Positions 7,805 to 17,361 of a DNA stretch of 64,000 nucleotides are shown one piece after another; the first letter of the stretch is position 1, and each line of letters opens with the position of its first letter. The notes under the pieces were generated by a model that saw only the letters and a program-made list of their open reading frames with translations, had not been told where the DNA came from and did no database searches. The translations under genes and the position numbers were made by a program. Source of the DNA: Alphaproteobacteria bacterium (GTDB taxonomy: Bacteria > Pseudomonadota > Alphaproteobacteria > UBA9219 > RFNS01); contig WGMR01000003.1 of NCBI GenBank assembly GCA_016124955.1, positions 62,001 through 126,000 on the forward strand, given 5' to 3'.

Positions 7805-8647
7805 TTACGTATATCTAGATCTTAGCTCATCAAAATGCAGTTTTATGGCAACGAGGGAATCGTCATCGGGCGCCGCGATAACCCCTTCGTTCAGCATAGC
7901 GGGGCTATAGGGTTTTCCGGCCCAATTGGCGGCTTTCCCGCCTGCTTCGGTATAGGCTAGCAAGCCAGCGGCATCGTCCCATGGCTTGGATTTTTCGAGC
8001 AAAACGAGGTAATGGGCTTGCGGCTCTTCTTTCCCGCCGAGCACCAGGTTGTTCAATAACTGAACGTAATGAAAGCATGCGGGATATGAATCGCTGATGA
8101 TTTTTGCCCGTACGGCACCGGGCGGCAGGTCTTTTAGTCTTTTTTTGAGCGCAGACCATGTTAACCCGCGCATCTCTTCCAGCGGTGCAGACGGCAAGGT
8201 TTCAAGCCTTTTGCCTCTGAACCATGCGCCACCGCCGCGCTCAACGGACATGGTTTCACCCAGCGCCGGCAGGTGAATCCATCCGCCAACGGTCTGCCCC
8301 TTATAGGTAAGGGCTACAATGGTGCCAAAATGTTCATTGCCATGCGCGAAGGAAAGCGTGCCGTCGATTGGGTCGATGATCCAGACGGGGTTGTCGCCCG
8401 ATATGCGCGCAATGATGGTTGGGTCGGCATGGTAGCTTTCTTCCCCTACCACGACGGAGCCAGGCAGCAAGGCCGCGAGGCGCGGTGAAAGCGCCTGCTC
8501 GGCTTCTATATCGGCCACCGTAACGAGATCGCGCGGCCCGGTTTTTTCCTTGATGTCGCCGGCACCAAGGGAACGGAAGCGCGGCATGATTTGTTCCGCC
8601 GTAACTTCGCGGATGATTGTATCAACTTCTGCGGGATTGACCTTCAC
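7805..8647 (-). CDS. Inositol-monophosphatase-family phosphatase
   Basis: This 280-residue Mg2+-dependent sugar/polyol phosphatase carries the metal-site motifs VVGEES (Glu) and WIIDPIDGTLSFAHG (DPIDGT), plus the C-terminal site KPWDDAAGLLAYTEAGG. Family members hydrolyse myo-inositol phosphate, histidinol phosphate (HisN) or 3'-phosphoadenosine 5'-phosphate; the substrate cannot be settled from sequence. The GTG start overlaps the hflX 3' end by 26 bases, so it is the last gene of the dusB-to-hflX operon and is coupled to hflX. Confidence 0.88.
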   Translation of the reverse strand: MKVNPAEVDTIIREVTAEQIMPRFRSLGAGDIKEKTGPRDLVTVADIEAEQALSPRLAALLPGSVVVGEESYHADPTIIARISGDNPVWIIDPIDGTLSFAHGNEHFGTIVALTYKGQTVGGWIHLPALGETMSVERGGGAWFRGKRLETLPSAPLEEMRGLTWSALKKRLKDLPPGAVRAKIISDSYPACFHYVQLLNNLVLGGKEEPQAHYLVLLEKSKPWDDAAGLLAYTEAGGKAANWAGKPYSPAMLNEGVIAAPDDDSLVAIKLHFDELRSRYT

Positions 8648-10013
8648 TTTTGCTGTCTTTCACAAACTTTTGCACGAAACGTCCGTAGTCTGCCTCATTC
8701 AGGCTGAGCTGCAAATGGGCCATTTCATCATCGTCATTGCGCCTGATGATATGGCCGTGCGCATAAATCCACGCAAGCGCTGCGCCGTCACTGAGCGGGA
8801 TGGATGCGTCGATGACCCTCCCGCGGCCTTGTAGCGCCACATCCATGCGCACGAGCAGCGCCGCAATCCCCTCCCCCGTCATGGCTGAAACGGCGGCCAT
8901 GCCTGCTGGCGCGTGATTTTGCTGGTCCGGCACATCGGCGGCGCCGGTCGCATCCTTGCTGGCCTTGTCGGCAAAAACCGCAAGTTCTTCGCGGGCGGCA
9001 TCATCAAGCCGGTCGATCTTGTTCATAACCTCAATGATACGCTTGTCATCCGGTTCGATGCCGAGTTCCGTAAGAACGGTTTCAACATCCTGTTTCTGTG
9101 CGCGGGTGTCCGGGTGCGATATGTCGCGCACATGCAGGATGAGATCCGCCAGCTGCACTTCCTCAAGCGTGGCACGGAAGGCTTCGACAAGATGCGTCGG
9201 CAGATCGGCGATAAAACCGACCGTGTCGGAAAGCACGGCTTCTTTCCCGGAAGGCAGCTTGATCCCGCGAATGGTCGGATCCAGCGTCGCGAACAGCATA
9301 TCTTTCACAAGCACGTCTGCGGCCGTCAGCCGGTTGAACAGGGTGGATTTTCCCGCGTTGGTGTAGCCGACAAGGGCGATGGTGGGATGCTCGGCCCGTT
9401 TACGGGCCTGCCGTTGCAGATCGCGCGTGCGGCGAACATCCTTCAGCTCACCCTTTATCTTGCTGATGCGGTTGGTAATCAGACGCCTGTCGATCTGTAG
9501 CTGGGTTTCGCCTGGCCCGCCAAGGAAGCCGAAGCCGCCGCGTTGCCGCTCGAGATGGGTCCATGACCGCACGAGGCGCGATTTCTGGTAGTTCAGTGCC
9601 GCAAGCTCGACCTGCAGCTGTCCTTCCCGTGTCTTGGCGCGTTCCCCGAATATTTCAAGGATCAGCCCGGTGCGGTCGATGACCTTGCAAAGCAACGCTT
9701 CTTCTAGGTTGCGTTGCTGAATGGGTGAAAGATGGTGGTCGAAAATAATCAGATTTATTTTTTCAGCTTTAACCCGCTCGGCCAGTTTTTCAACCCACCC
9801 CTTGCCAAGTAAATGCGACGGGCTTGGCGCCGTGACCTTGGCGATAACCGCCTCGATGACCCGGAGGCCGATGGCTTCGGCCAGGCCTTGTGCTTCCTCG
9901 AGAATGGCTGCCGCATCGCGGTTGTTTTCCAGCGGTGTGCGGTTAAGCCATGGTTTGATCACGAGCGCACGCTCGCCGCGCCGCACGTCCTCGACGTTAT
10001 CGGTTTCCTTCAT
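8622..10013 (-). CDS. hflX: Ribosome-associated GTPase HflX
   Basis: HflX is a GTPase that binds and splits stalled or stress-inactivated 70S ribosomes. The 463-residue protein has the HflX N-terminal domain, a coiled linker with GGFGFLGGPGETQ, the G domain with Walker A GYTNAGKST, the DTVGF G3 motif and NKID for guanine recognition, and a C-terminal domain. It lies 31 bp after hfq, the conserved hfq-hflX pair of proteobacteria. Confidence 0.96.
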   Translation of the reverse strand: MKETDNVEDVRRGERALVIKPWLNRTPLENNRDAAAILEEAQGLAEAIGLRVIEAVIAKVTAPSPSHLLGKGWVEKLAERVKAEKINLIIFDHHLSPIQQRNLEEALLCKVIDRTGLILEIFGERAKTREGQLQVELAALNYQKSRLVRSWTHLERQRGGFGFLGGPGETQLQIDRRLITNRISKIKGELKDVRRTRDLQRQARKRAEHPTIALVGYTNAGKSTLFNRLTAADVLVKDMLFATLDPTIRGIKLPSGKEAVLSDTVGFIADLPTHLVEAFRATLEEVQLADLILHVRDISHPDTRAQKQDVETVLTELGIEPDDKRIIEVMNKIDRLDDAAREELAVFADKASKDATGAADVPDQQNHAPAGMAAVSAMTGEGIAALLVRMDVALQGRGRVIDASIPLSDGAALAWIYAHGHIIRRNDDDEMAHLQLSLNEADYGRFVQKFVKDSKSEGQSRRS

Positions 10014-10044: not shown

Positions 10045-10299
10045 TCAATGTGCCTGGCCGCTTTCTTCCTCGCCCTGCTCGAACAACTGCACCGGGCCCG
10101 ACGGCATGACCGTTGAAATGGCATGCTTGTACACGAGCTGCGAGTGCGATTCACGTTTCAGCAGCATGGAAAAATTATCGAACCATGTGATGATGCCCTG
10201 GAGTTTAACGCCGTTCACGAGGAATACGGTCACGGGCATTTTGGTTTTACGGAGATTATTCAGGAATACATCCTGCACGTTTTCTTTTTTGTCCGACAC
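10045..10299 (-). CDS. hfq: RNA chaperone Hfq
   Basis: Hfq forms a hexameric Sm-like ring that pairs small RNAs with mRNAs. The 84-residue protein has the Sm1 motif ([19 protein letters not shown]) and the Sm2 motif ([10 protein letters not shown]). The start is a GTG with GGAGA 6 bases before it. An acidic C-terminal tail (EQGEEESGQ) takes the place of the long tail of E. coli Hfq. It sits between a HAD phosphatase gene and hflX. Confidence 0.97.
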
Positions 10300-11023: not shown

Positions 11024-12460
11024 TCAATTGACCTGTTCAGTCCCTTGATGGGTGGGGACCATCTTTACATGGTCTGCGCCATGGACGCCGAGCAGCTTCA
11101 GTTTGCGATGCAGTGCCGAGCGTTCCATGCCGATAAAGGTGGCGGTGCGGGAAATATTGCCGCCAAAGCGCGTGACCTGAGCCAGTAAATATTCGCGTTC
11201 GAACATTTCACGCGCATCCCGCAATGGCAGCGCCATGATCTCCCCGCCCTTTTCCCAGCGCAGCACGTTGGGGGTCGTAGCGGTGATGTCTGGCGGCAGC
11301 ATATCCGCCCTGATTTGCTCAGCCGTATCGCCGTTGGCCATGATAAGCAGCCATTCCATGGCGTTGCGCAACTGGCGCACGTTGCCGGGCCATGCATAGG
11401 CCTGTAGGGCGGCAAGCGCATCTTCGCCAAGCTCGCGTTGCGATAACCCGGAAACTTCTGCCGCGCGGGTCAGGAAATGTCGTGAAAGCATGGGGATATC
11501 GTCCCTGCGCTCGGTCAGGGGTGGGATTTTGAGCGGTACGACGCTTAGACGGTAATAAAGATCCTGCCGCAAGCGGCCCGCTTCCATTTCGGTTTGCAGA
11601 TCGCGGTTGCTGGCCGTGATGACGCGGACGTCAACTTCAACCTTGCTGTTGCCGCCGACGCGGGTGAAAACCTGTTCATGCAGGACGCGGACAATCTTGC
11701 CTTGCGTTTCCGCCGGCATGTCCGCCACTTCGTCCAGGAAAAGCGTGCCGCCATGCGCTTGCTCGAACATGCCGGTCTTGCGCGGGGTCTGGCTGTTGCC
11801 TTCACAGCCAAAAAGTTCGTCTTCAAACTGTTCCGGGCGCAGTGTTGCGCAGTTCACGACCACAAACGGGCCTTCGGCGCGCTTTGATTTTTCGTGGATT
11901 AAGCGCGCGACAACTTCCTTGCCCGAGCCGGCGGGGCCGGTGATCAGAACGCGGCTGCTGGTGGGCGCGACGCGGTCGATCATTTGCCTGATCTGGCTGA
12001 TGGGCAGGGATTTACCGATAAGCTGCTGATCGCCGCCTGCCTTAATGCGCAGTTCCTGGTTTTCGCGGCGCAGTCTGGCGGCTTCGAGCGCACGCTTAAC
12101 GAGCAAAATGAGCCTATCGGCCTTGAACGGCTTTTCGATGAAATCGTAGGCGCCCTTTTTAATGGCGGCGACGGCGGTTTCAATATTGCCATGGCCGCTG
12201 ATCATGATGATCGGAATATCATCGTAGTCGCGGCGCAGCGTATCAAGGATCTGCATGCCGTCCATGCGGCTGCCCTGCAGCCAGATATCGAGCACGATAA
12301 GGTTCGGGCGGCGCGCGGCTATGGCGGCCAGCGCATCGTCCGCATTTGCGGCTTCGCGGGTCTTGAGGCCTTCATCGTTCAGGATGCCGGCGATCAGCAG
12401 GCGGATATCCACTTCGTCGTCAACGATCAGGATATCCTGCGAAAGACTTTTTTCTTTCAT
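11024..12460 (-). CDS. ntrX: Sigma-54-family response regulator NtrX
   Basis: NtrX is the partner of the NtrY sensor, with roles in nitrogen, redox and envelope control in alphaproteobacteria. The 478-residue protein has a receiver domain (DD at residues 14-15, phospho-acceptor Asp 58 in VLDIW, conserved Lys in IEKPF), an AAA+ domain with Walker A GPAGSGKE and DEVADMP, and a Fis-type HTH with NISRTATFIGMERSALHRKLK. The GAFTGA loop that contacts sigma-54 is absent (the segment reads EGNSQTPRKTG), as is usual for NtrX, so it probably does not act as a classical sigma-54 activator. Confidence 0.95.
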   Translation of the reverse strand: MKEKSLSQDILIVDDEVDIRLLIAGILNDEGLKTREAANADDALAAIAARRPNLIVLDIWLQGSRMDGMQILDTLRRDYDDIPIIMISGHGNIETAVAAIKKGAYDFIEKPFKADRLILLVKRALEAARLRRENQELRIKAGGDQQLIGKSLPISQIRQMIDRVAPTSSRVLITGPAGSGKEVVARLIHEKSKRAEGPFVVVNCATLRPEQFEDELFGCEGNSQTPRKTGMFEQAHGGTLFLDEVADMPAETQGKIVRVLHEQVFTRVGGNSKVEVDVRVITASNRDLQTEMEAGRLRQDLYYRLSVVPLKIPPLTERRDDIPMLSRHFLTRAAEVSGLSQRELGEDALAALQAYAWPGNVRQLRNAMEWLLIMANGDTAEQIRADMLPPDITATTPNVLRWEKGGEIMALPLRDAREMFEREYLLAQVTRFGGNISRTATFIGMERSALHRKLKLLGVHGADHVKMVPTHQGTEQVN

Positions 12461-12465
12461 ATATG

Positions 12466-14781
12466 CTACCCACCTGTTGCTTGTTTGGATGCCGGCGGCG
12501 TGTCATGGAGAATCAACTGGTCTTCATCAGTATGACCAATTTCCTCCATTCTTGCCAGCAGGTTTTTCTTCGTGTCCGTTTCGACGCGCGCAAAGGACAA
12601 TGTCACGACCGCGCCGCCAGCTTCGCTATCGCTCAAGGTCAGTGTGCCGCGATGGTCTTCCATGATCTTTTTCACGATCGCGAGGCCAAGGCCGGTGCCT
12701 TTGCTGCGGGTTGTCACATAGGGTTCCGTCAAACGGTTACGCTCTTCGACCGGCAGGCCCTTACCGTTATCGGCGACTGTAACGGTTGCGAACGTTTCGT
12801 CGGCTTCAAGCCGTACCGTAACGCGCCCCATGGGTAATGGCTGTCCTTCTTCTGCTTTACGGCCTTCGATCGCTTCCATCGCGTTCTTGATGATATTGGT
12901 CAGCGCCTGTGAAACCTGCCTGCCGTCGATATCGAGCCTGACGGGCCGCGCAGGCATTTCCTGAACGAATTCGATATCCGTTCTTCCGGTGCTTTGCATG
13001 AAGACGGCGTCGCGGCACAGATCGCGCAAATCCTGGCTTTTCATGATGGGCGAAGGCATGCGCGCGAAAGCCGAGAATTCATCGACCATGTTGCCGATAT
13101 CGTCCACCTGCCGGATGATCGTGTCCGTGCAGGAAACAAAAGTTTCGGGGTCGCTGGTGACCTCGGCGGCATATTTACGGCGCAAGCGTTCGGCCGAAAG
13201 GCGAATGGGCGTAAGCGGGTTTTTGATCTCATGTGCGATACGGCGCGCCACATCGGCCCATGCCGCTTTGCGCTGCGCGCTTACAAGATCGGAAACGTCA
13301 TCGAAGGTCACGACATAGCCGCGCGTTTCGTTATCCTGGATATCGGCCGCAATGCGCACCAGCATGGTGCGGGCTGGCTGGCCGGGGCGACGCAATTCGA
13401 TTTGCCCATCCGTTATGCGTGCGGTCGGCGAAAGGTTGTCCATCAGCTCTTCCATTTCGGGAATGATGGCGCTGATATGCTTGCCTTCATTTTCCTTTGG
13501 CGCATCGATCTTGAAGAATTCTGCGGCCGAAATATTGGTCAGGGTGATGTTGCCTTGTTGATCGAGGCCGATAACGCCTGCCGGCACCGTGGCCAACACG
13601 GCTTCGGTGAAACGCCGGCGGCTATCGATCAGGCGGTTGGCCTGAATAAGTTCCTTGCGTTGGGTATCAAGCTGGCCGGTCATGCGGTTGAACGAGCGGC
13701 TCAGGATGCTGATTTCGTCATCGGATTCGTCGTCATCGCTTTCGGAAACGCGGGTTGTGAGGTCCCCTGCCCTGACCCGCTCGGAAGCGCCGATAAGTTC
13801 ACTGATCGGTTTCACCAGTCTTGTCGCGAAATTGAGGCCGAACCACACCGCAGCCATGAGCAATAACAACGCGACGACAATAAAGATCATGGTGATCGTG
13901 ATTTGCAGCCCCGAACGCTTGCCTTCAAGCTGAGCGTATTCCCGCACGGCATCCTGCGTCGTGGCCATGTGTGCCAGCACATCCGGGTCAACCAGCCTGC
14001 CGACAAACAGATAGGCATCGACAAAATTTTCAAGCCGCACCAGCGCGCGAATGCGGTCATCATTATCGCTGACGACAAGCACGACATCGCCCTTGCGGGC
14101 GCGCTGCATCATGTCTTCGGTAATCGGCTCGAAGCTGAGCGAGAATGTCAGGCCCGAGCGCGCAAGGATACGGCCTGTGCCATCAAAAACCACGGCTTCC
14201 GTCAGCGAGCGAATAGCGGCCTGCGCCGTGACCAATTGGGAAAAGCGGCTGGGGGTATCGCCGATACGGAGCGCTTCGCGGTTCAGATCGTTCGCCATCG
14301 CAAGCACATCGGCCCGGATCACCTGTTGATGTTCCTTGAGGTACGATTGCGCCACGACCAGCGATTCATTGATCGCGGTACGGACCCGGTCCGAAAACCA
14401 TGCCTGAACGCCAAAATAGAAAAATACGGCAGCAAAGCTGGCGACGATAAGCGAGGGCAAAACTGCGAGCAGTGTAAAGACCGTGACCATGCGCACATGC
14501 AGCCGCGAACCGGCCTGGTTGCGCCTGCGCGTCGCGAATATGCCGAGGATACGATGGAATACGAGCGCGCTGAGCAGAAGCAGCAGAACGAGATCAAGTG
14601 TGAGTAAAAGCGTGATGGTGGTCGGGTCCGTTCCGAAGGGTGTCGTTTCCGTCATCGCTGCATAGGTGGCGATCCCGGCCGCCAGCGATGCAAGCGTGAG
14701 CCCGATGGCCATGCGGCTGCGCAGATGGACCTTGCGCGCCCATGCGGCCATACGCGTTTGCCATGTGGATGCGGCGGCCAT
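12466..14781 (-). CDS. ntrY: Membrane sensor histidine kinase NtrY
   Basis: The 771-residue kinase begins with several transmembrane helices (about residues 25-115), then a periplasmic sensing region, a further helix, a HAMP domain, a PAS domain (ATVPAGVIGLDQQGNIT), HisKA with the phospho-acceptor His 517 in AHEIKNPLTPI, and a HATPase domain with NIIKNAMEA, DNGKGLP and GTGLGLAIV. It lies 5 bp upstream of ntrX. Its ATG overlaps the stop codon of the Fis-like gene by one base, so translation of the kinase is coupled to that small DNA-binding protein. Confidence 0.95.
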   Translation of the reverse strand: MAAASTWQTRMAAWARKVHLRSRMAIGLTLASLAAGIATYAAMTETTPFGTDPTTITLLLTLDLVLLLLLSALVFHRILGIFATRRRNQAGSRLHVRMVTVFTLLAVLPSLIVASFAAVFFYFGVQAWFSDRVRTAINESLVVAQSYLKEHQQVIRADVLAMANDLNREALRIGDTPSRFSQLVTAQAAIRSLTEAVVFDGTGRILARSGLTFSLSFEPITEDMMQRARKGDVVLVVSDNDDRIRALVRLENFVDAYLFVGRLVDPDVLAHMATTQDAVREYAQLEGKRSGLQITITMIFIVVALLLLMAAVWFGLNFATRLVKPISELIGASERVRAGDLTTRVSESDDDESDDEISILSRSFNRMTGQLDTQRKELIQANRLIDSRRRFTEAVLATVPAGVIGLDQQGNITLTNISAAEFFKIDAPKENEGKHISAIIPEMEELMDNLSPTARITDGQIELRRPGQPARTMLVRIAADIQDNETRGYVVTFDDVSDLVSAQRKAAWADVARRIAHEIKNPLTPIRLSAERLRRKYAAEVTSDPETFVSCTDTIIRQVDDIGNMVDEFSAFARMPSPIMKSQDLRDLCRDAVFMQSTGRTDIEFVQEMPARPVRLDIDGRQVSQALTNIIKNAMEAIEGRKAEEGQPLPMGRVTVRLEADETFATVTVADNGKGLPVEERNRLTEPYVTTRSKGTGLGLAIVKKIMEDHRGTLTLSDSEAGGAVVTLSFARVETDTKKNLLARMEEIGHTDEDQLILHDTPPASKQATGG

Positions 14782-15047
14782 CAGCTTTTCCCCTTCTTGA
14801 CGGGGGTGATGCCAAGCATCTTCAGCTTTTTGCGAAGCGTATTGCGGTTGAGACCAAGCAAGGCTGCCGCCTTGATCTGGTTGCCCTTACAGCGCTCGAG
14901 CGTCAGGATAAGCAACGGGCGTTCGATCTGGTGCAAAACCCTGTCATACAAATCCGATCCGGCGGCTTGCCCGGCCTGCATGGCGAAATAATGCCGCAGG
15001 TGGCGCTCGACGCTCATGGAAAGGTTGTGCTGGGTTTGCTCGTTCAT
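14781..15047 (-). CDS. Stand-alone Fis/NtrC-tail DNA-binding protein
   Basis: This 88-residue protein aligns along almost its whole length with E. coli Fis and with the last 80 or so residues of alphaproteobacterial NtrC: HYFA near residue 18, [15 protein letters not shown], then the [23 protein letters not shown]. The NRNTLRKK form is that of NtrC; E. coli Fis has NRGTLRKK. There is no receiver or AAA+ domain and no room for one, because the ATG overlaps the dusB stop (ATGA). The dusB-fis order is the gammaproteobacterial one, whereas the following ntrYX is alphaproteobacterial. Either a DNA-bending Fis protein or an NtrC remnant that still binds NtrC operators would fit. Confidence 0.88.
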
Positions 15048-16072
15048 GCCGCCATCGCTTCGCGCTCAAGCTGCGGCGCATAGAATTCTTCGATAAAGCT
15101 GCGGACGACGCCCGGGTCGTCCATGCTGTTGACGGCGGCCCGGAACTCGGCCGAGCGCGGCAAGCCCTTGCTGTACCAGCTGATATGTTTGCGCGCGATG
15201 CGTATCCCGGTCGTTACGCCGTAATGCGAAAGCATGTCTTCAAGGTGGCGCAACATAAGCCCGAGCTGCTGCGTCAGCGTGGGCGGTGCGGGTATGCTGC
15301 CGGTGCGGAGGTATTCGATCGCCTGCCGGATAAACCATGGGCGGCCATAGCAGCCGCGGCCGATCATAACGCCATCGGCGCCCGAAGCATCAATGGCGTT
15401 ATCTATATCAGAAAAATCGTTGATGTCGCCGTTGGCAATCACGGGGATGCTCACGGCTTCCTTGACGCTGCGGATGAAGTTCCAATCCGCCGCACCTTCG
15501 TAGAACTGGCAGCGGGTGCGGCCATGTATGGTAACCATCTTGATCCCGCATTCTTCGGCGACGCGCGCAAGCTTGGGGGCGTTCAAACAGTTATGGTCCC
15601 ATCCCATGCGCATCTTCAACGTAACGGGGATCTTGACCGCCTTGACGACCGCTTCAAGAATTTGCGCAGCCTTAGCCTCTTCACGCATCAGCGCGGAACC
15701 GGCATAGCCGTTCACGACCTTCTTGGCAGGGCAGCCGAAGTTGATGTCGATGATTTGTACGCCGCGGTCTTCGTTCAGCTTCGCGGCTTCGGCCATCACC
15801 GCAGGTTCGCACCCGGCGAGCTGTACGGCCATCGGAAATTCTTCGGGCGTGTACTGGGCCATTTGCAGGGTTTTCACATTTTCCCTGATCATTGCCTGGC
15901 TGGCGATCATTTCAGACACCACAAGCCCTGCCCCGTAGCTTTTCACGAGCCTTCGGAACGGCATATCGCTTACCCCCGACATGGGTGCCAGAAAGACCGG
16001 TTCGTCGATCCGGATGGGCCCGATGTGGATAGGTTTAAGACGCGATGCGGTATGTGCTGTATCTTCTTGCAT
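15044..16072 (-). CDS. dusB: tRNA-dihydrouridine synthase DusB/NifR3
   Basis: DusB is an FMN enzyme that reduces uridines in the tRNA D-loop. The 342-residue TIM-barrel has [12 protein letters not shown] at the N-terminus, QLAGCEP, the catalytic Cys in [27 protein letters not shown], and the FMN-phosphate site NGDI with [17 protein letters not shown] precedes the ATG chosen here. In alphaproteobacteria this gene (nifR3) usually begins the nifR3-ntrB-ntrC operon; here a Fis-like gene follows instead. The promoter carries a perfect NtrC-type operator. Confidence 0.96.
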
Positions 16073-16093
16073 CAATGGCTTGCGATCTTACAA

Positions 16094-16112
16094 TTGCACA
16101 AAATTTGTGCAA
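16094..16112. promoter_or_regulatory. Perfect NtrC-type operator upstream of dusB
   Basis: TTGCACAAA-A-TTTGTGCAA is an uninterrupted dyad with 9-bp arms. Its core TGCAC-N7-GTGCA (16095-16111) has exactly the half-sites and spacing of NtrC binding sites such as those at E. coli glnA. It lies 22 bp upstream of the dusB ATG and would cover about -6 to +11 of the predicted promoter, a position that suits repression. Confidence 0.75.
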
Positions 16113-16140
16113 ATCTAGGCATGATCTGCCGGAAATGCAA
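16112..16140 (-). promoter_or_regulatory. Predicted sigma-70 promoter of the dusB-fis-ntrYX operon
   Basis: On the minus strand TTGCAT (16140-16135) is followed after 17 bases by TAGATT (16117-16112). The start point would be near 16105, inside the NtrC-type dyad. Confidence 0.55.
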
Positions 16141-16194
16141 GCAAAGTCCTTGCTTTAGTTTATCAGAACGCTACTTTCCCGCGTTCGCATCTGG

Positions 16195-17361
16195 ATGGGT
16201 TTAATGGGCGGTACGACAGCAATAATCGTTGCAGGAGGCGCGGGAGAGCGTTTTGGCGGCGCTTTACCGAAGCAGTATCAGGATCTTGGCGGGATGCCGA
16301 TCCTGCGCCGCAGTATCCTTGCCTTCATTAACCACCCGCTTATCGATGACGTGCAGGTCGTTATTAACCAAGCGCATCGCGCGCTGTACGATAAGGCCGT
16401 AGAAGGCATTCCACTGCTGGAACCCGTTAAGGGCGGTGCAACGCGGCAGGAATCTGTTCGGCGCGGTCTGGAAGCGCTGGAGGCTAAAGCGCCAAAACAT
16501 GTGCTTATCCACGATGCTGCGCGCCCGCTGATCGATGCCGCGACCATCACATCCGTTTGCAAGGTGCTTGAAAACGCCAAGGGCGCGATCGCGGCCAAGC
16601 CGCTGGTTGATACGTTGAAGCGCGGTACCAACGATATTATTGATACCACTATCGACCGCAGCAATCTATGGCAGGCGCATACCCCGCAAGGTTTTCATTT
16701 TAGTGCTATACTCGCAGCCCATCGCTCGGCCGTCGCGCACGAATTGACGGACGATGCGGCGGTAGCAGAGAAAGCCGGTATTCCCGTAACCCTCGTTCCT
16801 TCAAACCCGGATAACATGAAAATCACGAACCCTGATGATCTTGGCCGCGCCGCCCGCCTGCTTGGCACCCCGATTGACGATGTGCGCACCGGCTTCGGTT
16901 TTGATGTGCATCGGCTTATCCCGGGTGATGGCGTTATTCTGTGCGGTATCAAGATCGCGCACGATAAAAAGCTTGAAGGTCATTCCGACGCCGATGTCGC
17001 GCTTCATGCGATCACGGATGCAATTCTGGGCGCACTCGGTGCCGGGGATATCGGCTACCACTTCCCCAACACTGATCCGCAATGGAAGGGCAAGGAAAGC
17101 GGCCACTTCCTGCGTCACGCCGTGAATATGGTGCGGCAGCGCGGCGGCATCATCGGCCATATCGACGCGACAATCCTGTGTGAGGAGCCAAAAATTAATC
17201 CGCACCGGGATGCGATGGTTGCAAGGCTGGCCGATTTGATGGAAATCACGCCCGACCGCATTGGCCTTAAGGCCACGACCACGGAAAAGCTTGGCTTTAC
17301 CGGGCGCGGCGAAGGCATTGCTGCGCAAGCTGTCGCCACCATCCGCCTGCCGCCGAACTAG
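16195..17361 (+). CDS. ispDF: Bifunctional IspD-IspF (MEP isoprenoid pathway)
   Basis: Two enzymes of the methylerythritol phosphate route are fused in 388 residues. The N-terminal part (about 1-225) is CDP-ME synthase: AIIVAGGAGERFGG, LPKQYQ, HDAARPL and the late Lys-containing NMKITNPDDL. The C-terminal part (about 230-388) is MECDP synthase: GFGFDVHRL with metal-binding Asp/His, LEGHSDADV, and the GLKATTTEKLGFTGRGEGIAA end. The fusion is common in alphaproteobacteria. A second ATG 9 bases in (16204) is an equally good start. It is divergent from dusB and followed 3 bp later by pncC. Confidence 0.95.
   Translation: MGLMGGTTAIIVAGGAGERFGGALPKQYQDLGGMPILRRSILAFINHPLIDDVQVVINQAHRALYDKAVEGIPLLEPVKGGATRQESVRRGLEALEAKAPKHVLIHDAARPLIDAATITSVCKVLENAKGAIAAKPLVDTLKRGTNDIIDTTIDRSNLWQAHTPQGFHFSAILAAHRSAVAHELTDDAAVAEKAGIPVTLVPSNPDNMKITNPDDLGRAARLLGTPIDDVRTGFGFDVHRLIPGDGVILCGIKIAHDKKLEGHSDADVALHAITDAILGALGAGDIGYHFPNTDPQWKGKESGHFLRHAVNMVRQRGGIIGHIDATILCEEPKINPHRDAMVARLADLMEITPDRIGLKATTTEKLGFTGRGEGIAAQAVATIRLPPN

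Follow-up and report, generated by a model that had tools for sequence, protein, structure and literature searches.

The palindrome that lies in front of dusB at this locus raises the question of which protein reads it and with what effect on the genes behind it. The window, that is, the whole 64-kb stretch of DNA that was analysed, carries a 19-bp perfect dyad, TTGCACAAAATTTGTGCAA, at 16094..16112 (no strand), in the 119-bp intergenic gap that separates dusB on the minus strand from the divergent ispDF on the plus strand. Its core, TGCAC-N7-GTGCA, was read directly from the sequence at 16095-16111, and at the same positions the NtrC box TGC-N11-GCA with an A/T-rich centre is present as TGC-ACAAAATTTGT-GCA. 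The half-sites and the spacing were thus exactly those that had been given for this dyad in the preliminary description. From the direct sequence, the chance estimates and the frame conserved in relatives, we classified it as an NtrC/Fis-type operator (TGC-N11-GCA).

The core occurs without mismatch once in the 64-kb window, and TTGCACAAAATTTGTGCAA is the only perfect 9-1-9 dyad found there, compared with a mean of 0.43 in shuffled windows. When the dusB/ispDF intergenic region (119 bp) was subjected to dinucleotide shuffling, any perfect 9-1-9 dyad appeared in 19 of 20,000 shuffles and TGCAC-N7-GTGCA in 4 of 20,000. Across the 1.93-Mb genome, three exact TGCAC-N7-GTGCA sites were detected and none for the reversed-pattern control. 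One of them (C7:166906) lies within an amidase-like ORF and was taken as chance. Another copy of the core, GTGCACAAATTTTGTGCAC (C8:15548; L191:3548-3566), is located just past a TadE/G-like gene and about 280 bp upstream of a gene for a 370-aa repetitive, probably secreted protein. A terminator role for the dyad was ruled out, as it sits between two divergent 5' ends; the sole terminator-like hairpin found is weak and separate from it, formed by GCAAGCAAAGTCCTTGC then TTTAGTTTAT at 16137-16153 on the plus strand, between the dyad and ispDF. Since ispDF (16195..17361, plus strand; Pfam IspD and YgbB) starts 83 bp from the dyad, an effect of the dyad on ispDF may also be possible.

On the minus strand, the ORFs gave the order dusB-fis(88 aa)-ntrY-ntrX-HAD phosphatase-hfq-hflX, and Pfam matches backed the first four genes; this order agrees with the dusB-fis-ntrYX operon with Hfq and HflX downstream that had been proposed. 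The gene for tRNA-dihydrouridine synthase B, dusB (15044..16072, minus; Pfam Dus, 3e-102), has its ATG at 16072, while the ORF list begins at a TTG at 16075. The gene for the 88-residue protein, a stand-alone NtrC-type DNA-binding domain or Fis-like protein (14781..15047, minus; HTH_8, 1.4e-14), overlaps the stop of dusB, so that fis directly follows dusB, as in the E. coli order. It is followed by the sensor kinase gene ntrY (12466..14781, minus; NtrY_N, 1.3e-44) and a full-length response regulator gene ntrX (11024..12460, minus; 725 bits against the NCBIfam NtrX equivalog, cut-off 600). Downstream in the same direction lie hfq (10045..10299, minus) and hflX (8622..10013, minus), which, like the HAD-type hydrolase, were named from the sequence only.

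HTH_8 was the sole domain above its curated cut-off in the 88-residue protein, and the receiver and sigma-54 AAA+ domains of NtrC are absent. The protein scored 53.8 bits against NCBIfam ntrC (cut-off 558.6), and 79.5 and 77.3 bits against the NCBIfam Fis equivalogs (cut-offs 122 and 99), below the cut-off in each case. In the PDB search E. coli Fis was closest (1.6e-16, aligned residues 3-80), and the NtrC domain 1NTC was far weaker (0.0017). The protein is 46% identical to E. coli Fis, a figure that alphaproteobacterial NtrC domains also approach in the best cases (about 46%). Its AlphaFold model (pLDDT 78) had E. coli and Pseudomonas Fis as the first structure matches (E 6.7e-4, TM ~0.6, probability 1.00) and predicts a small, stand-alone, four-helix Fis fold. 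The dimer-forming helices are retained. The N-terminal beta-hairpin of Fis was not found: the alignment begins at E. coli residue 21, and the model shows no strand there. In Fis this hairpin serves the stimulation of Hin and Gin. The recognition helix NRNTLRKK, in turn, is common to nearly all alphaproteobacterial NtrC proteins, and in the domain tree the protein grouped with alphaproteobacterial NtrC domains at modest support (84% SH-aLRT). Because the helix is NtrC-like, the fold is that of Fis and the identities are similar, the protein counts as both: Fis itself amounts to an NtrC-type DNA-binding domain on its own, and so does this protein. With HTH_8 and an NtrC-type recognition helix as all that is left, the proposal that the operon has lost the regulatory domains of NtrC and kept an NtrC-type helix-turn-helix was borne out. 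The short protein is as much a Fis homologue as an NtrC remnant, and the truncation of NtrC in the order is old, order-wide and predates the window's genome.

The short Fis is encoded by 28 of the 33 genomes of the order, directly after dusB in most, and it also follows dusB in several other small-genome alphaproteobacterial lineages, while larger-genome relatives carry dusB-ntrB-ntrC-ntrY-ntrX. Across the order, the regions upstream of dusB share the same 19-bp frame, mostly as TTGCCTAWWWWWTAGGCAA / TTGCCTATTTTTTAGGCAA. For counting, we built a symmetric matrix, nearly all of whose seed sites came from the order, and ran it over the 170 bp in front of dusB at about 150 loci; a site was counted where its score beat all 60 shuffles of the locus. 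The TTGC-N11-GCAA frame was present in the dusB promoter at 18 of 21 scored order loci with the short Fis and at 81 of 92 dusB-ntrB-ntrC-ntrYX loci with full-length NtrC across Alphaproteobacteria. It was found at 8 of 26 short-Fis loci outside the order and at 1 of 15 loci where dusB directly precedes ntrYX (no NtrC/Fis). The association of domain and site gave a Fisher p of ~1e-7 with relatedness ignored; the DusB tree offers only 6-7 independent contrasts, consistent in direction and not significant in a sign test (median p 0.5). The counts thus speak strongly for the association, and the test of independent events speaks for it weakly. The rebuilt matrix had the consensus TGCCTAWWWWWTAGGCA, with its information in TGC...GCA and an A/T centre, that is, TGC-N11-GCA. 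Conservation of the dyad upstream of dusB among relatives that share the gene order, which had been set as the point at which the reading could fail, therefore held in 18 of 21 order loci. The idea of an NtrC-type operator at dusB likewise stood; what did not is its picture as a lone perfect match, since the usual class-wide form of the element is TGCCT-N7-AGGCA and the window's TGCAC form is one variant of it.

Individual genomes bear on this pattern in both directions. In G009, fis-ntrY has moved off dusB, and the dyad has gone along with it, ending some 70 bp ahead of the fis match (L178), with dusB left without one. In G026 the dyad lies further upstream, beyond the scanned 170 bp. Neither fis nor the dyad was found in G001, G007 and G011. 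Three genomes are exceptions: G006 has fis and no dyad, G017 has the dyad at dusB with fis elsewhere, and in G015 a perfect dyad, TTGCCCATTTTTTGGGCAA (L180:854-872), stands upstream of dusB-ntrYX although the genome yielded no fis. Nine loci from other alphaproteobacterial lineages (L230, L237, L238, L240, L250, L251, L262, L266 and L273) have the short Fis after dusB and no recognisable dyad, and their Fis proteins are more diverged. At L209, L072, L200, L247 and others with full NtrC, the best site (TGCC...AATGGGCAT) is at -17 and runs across the start codon of dusB, and coding constraint may account for part of the match; some of these loci have a second copy near -45. Strong copies of the dyad were also seen 60-130 bp upstream of uvrC in G004, G005 and G013 (L280, L281 and L282; sites 2459, 2529 and 2513), and uvrC is a possible second conserved target, in three genomes from two families of the order. 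G025 holds five more near-perfect copies away from dusB (L193-L196, L289), mostly with no clear downstream gene.

Alignment of 19 promoters of the order on the dyad placed the hexamer TTGCCT at dyad positions 1-6, followed by a 17-bp spacer and TGnTA (TGnTAnnn), with the A at dyad position 25 invariant (19/19) and an ATG 16 bases past the dyad in about half. This alignment shows that the dyad is embedded in the -35/spacer region of a conserved core promoter. In the window, the position of the conserved TTGCCT is taken by TTGCAC, a putative -35 hexamer formed by the dusB-distal dyad arm (16107..16112, minus), and the same alignment points to a putative -10 hexamer, TAAGAT (16085..16090, minus), after a 16-bp spacer and with a TG two bases before it. 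A sigma-70 consensus scan of the window's dusB upstream region gave no promoter at threshold, and for this reason the promoter assigned here rests on positional homology with the relatives. The dusB start codon lies about 12 bases past the putative -10, and the dusB mRNA is predicted to be nearly leaderless. An alternative promoter further upstream, TTGCAT (16140-16135), a 17-bp spacer and TAGATT (16117-16112), would bring the start point onto the dyad, as first described; a TATGCG-like element occurs in that position in some sphingomonads, and the alternative is not conserved in the order. Judged from the window's sequence, with no sigma-70 match at threshold, the earlier placing of the dyad over a predicted start point was weak; in the relatives the dyad overlies a conserved promoter, at its -35 and spacer.

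Taken with what is known of related systems, these features make it probable that the dyad is the operator at which the 88-residue protein represses its own operon, and that an ancestral NtrC feedback loop has been retained in this form. For Sinorhizobium meliloti the NtrC box is given as TGC-N11-GCA, and NtrC there binds PdusB and represses dusB-ntrBC (PMC10746234). In Caulobacter, NtrC is a repressor of the operon that encodes it, and ChIP-seq gave for it a motif resembling that of E. coli Fis (PMC10274813); Fis of Salmonella likewise represses dusB-fis, the operon in which it is encoded (PMC7482072). A Fis-type dimer would be expected to block the promoter here, and repression is the known sign both for NtrC at PdusB and for Fis at Salmonella dusB-fis. 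The ancestral alphaproteobacterial dusB-ntrBC-ntrYX operon would have been under negative feedback through the dyad. The present lineage would have lost ntrB and, from ntrC, the regions for the receiver and AAA+ domains, leaving the dimerising DNA-binding domain and the operator. A dimer of the 88-residue protein could then bind the two TGCAC arms that flank the A/T centre, and by covering the dusB promoter at its -35 hexamer and spacer it would shut out RNA polymerase (sigma-70 holoenzyme). With no phosphorylation input on the 88-residue protein, its amount alone would set repression, and the effect would presumably extend to the downstream genes for NtrYX, Hfq and HflX.

Other readings of the dyad were weighed against this one. 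That it is a chance palindrome without function is hardly credible: the roughly 0.4 perfect 9-1-9 dyads expected per shuffled 64-kb window leave some room for chance, but the dyad lies in the promoter and recurs at that very place throughout the order and the class, which speaks against it. More substance attaches to NtrX, encoded downstream, which in its phosphorylated form might bind the dyad and autoregulate ntrYX. The published NtrX motifs are CAAN2-5TTG (Brucella, Sinorhizobium) and GCAN9TGC (Rhodobacter sphaeroides) (PMC9223101), and the window's dyad holds both CAA-N3-TTG and GCA-N9-TGC, as CAAAATTTG and GCACAAAATTTGTGC; NtrX is also intact here. However, the form conserved in relatives (TTGCCT...AGGCAA) matches neither motif, and the dyad is missing at 14 of the 15 ntrYX-only loci, so that the site is not kept where NtrX stays; NtrX was confirmed to be present in G001, G007, G011, G206, G101, G186 and G110. 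The recognition helix of NtrX, GMERSALHRKLK, also differs from that of the 88-residue protein. Since the relatives' form lacks the NtrX motifs and the dyad is gone in genomes with NtrX only, the short protein is favoured, and we regard an NtrX operator as unlikely. As the motifs published for NtrC, for Fis and for NtrX are all matched by this one dyad, motif matching by itself does not identify the binder.

The two proteins might instead share the dyad, by competition or co-occupancy, in which case NtrYX signalling would still reach the operon. The TGCAC variant is rare among the relatives and is the very one that adds the NtrX-motif matches, but TGCAC half-sites also occur at loci with full NtrC (L079, L122, L263 and L269), so the variant needs no NtrX to explain it, and we give a shared site little chance. 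The dyad could also be a relic of an NtrC operator, kept through its overlap with the core promoter while the short protein acts elsewhere, as the dyad of G015 without any detected fis and the separation of dyad and fis in G017 would suggest. Against this, two-fold symmetry has been kept in the order, with the letters of the arms changing jointly (CT/AG to AC/GT and AT/AT), a change in both arms that the promoter hexamer alone does not require, and the site travelled with fis in G009. A relic is thus improbable in our judgement, and repression by the 88-residue protein through the dyad is the reading that we prefer.

The genomic setting also bears on how the short protein arose. The order's Fis domain occupies the exact place of ntrBC in the relatives. 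In G048, a class-level relative, one 299-aa ORF stands between dusB and ntrY (L214:5078-5977, minus), in which the N-terminal half of NtrB (PAS, HisKA) is joined in frame with the C-terminal end of NtrC (an AAA+ lid remnant and HTH_8); in every other match listed, residues 1-182 match NtrB ORFs and residues from about 175 to 299 match NtrC ORFs. This fusion was unique among the 386 class genomes searched. As the junction is in frame, it is plausibly a snapshot of an internal ntrBC deletion that leaves the DNA-binding domain, although, coming from a single MAG, it may have arisen through misassembly. RpoN is present in 33 of 33 order genomes, and we therefore rejected a loss of sigma-54 as the cause of the NtrC truncation. 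An origin of Fis from NtrC was proposed by Morett and Bork (1998, FEBS Lett 433:108, as cited in PMC7166090 and PMC7482072). In a smaller careful domain tree, a branch joined the order's Fis with beta/gamma Fis with support of 56/76; the domain trees comprise 80 columns, too few to settle a shared origin of the two. A bolder reading, less likely than not, is that an internal deletion of ntrB-ntrC in place gave rise to stand-alone Fis within Alphaproteobacteria, that the autorepression operator is older than Fis and was kept throughout, that the dusB-fis-ntrYX lineages and the G048 fusion are surviving stages, and that beta/gamma dusB-fis descends from such a locus.

The window shares with the autoregulated dusB(nifR3)-ntrB-ntrC operons of S. 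meliloti and Caulobacter (PMC10746234; PMC10274813) the promoter, the TGC-N11-GCA box, the DNA-binding domain and the operon position. It differs from them in having no NtrB, NtrC receiver or AAA+ domain, so that a binder free of phosphorylation and oligomerisation control would exert the repression. Like Enterobacteriaceae dusB-fis (PMC7482072), it has a small Fis-fold protein right after dusB and a promoter with an operator; unlike there, ntrYX and hfq-hflX come next, the operator is a specific TGC-N11-GCA box in place of degenerate sites, and the protein falls under the NCBIfam Fis cut-offs. The Morett and Bork scheme, as it is cited, likewise has a stand-alone NtrC DNA-binding domain beside dusB, and compared with that account the present case is an alphaproteobacterial one, sits precisely where ntrBC would be and retains the operator. 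As for the NtrX boxes (PMC9223101), both strings lie inside the window's dyad and are absent from the conserved form of the relatives.

Autorepression of a dusB operon is known; what stands out here, against the open-access PMC literature that was searched, is that operator and DNA-binding domain have been kept together through the loss of the rest of NtrC. A regulatory loop would here have outlived most of its regulator, with kinase, receiver and ATPase gone and the DNA-binding domain and its operator still in place. For work on promoters the locus would supply a natural, minimal autorepressor, and with living intermediates at hand the NtrC-to-Fis hypothesis becomes testable. It points to a route by which Fis-type regulators can arise.
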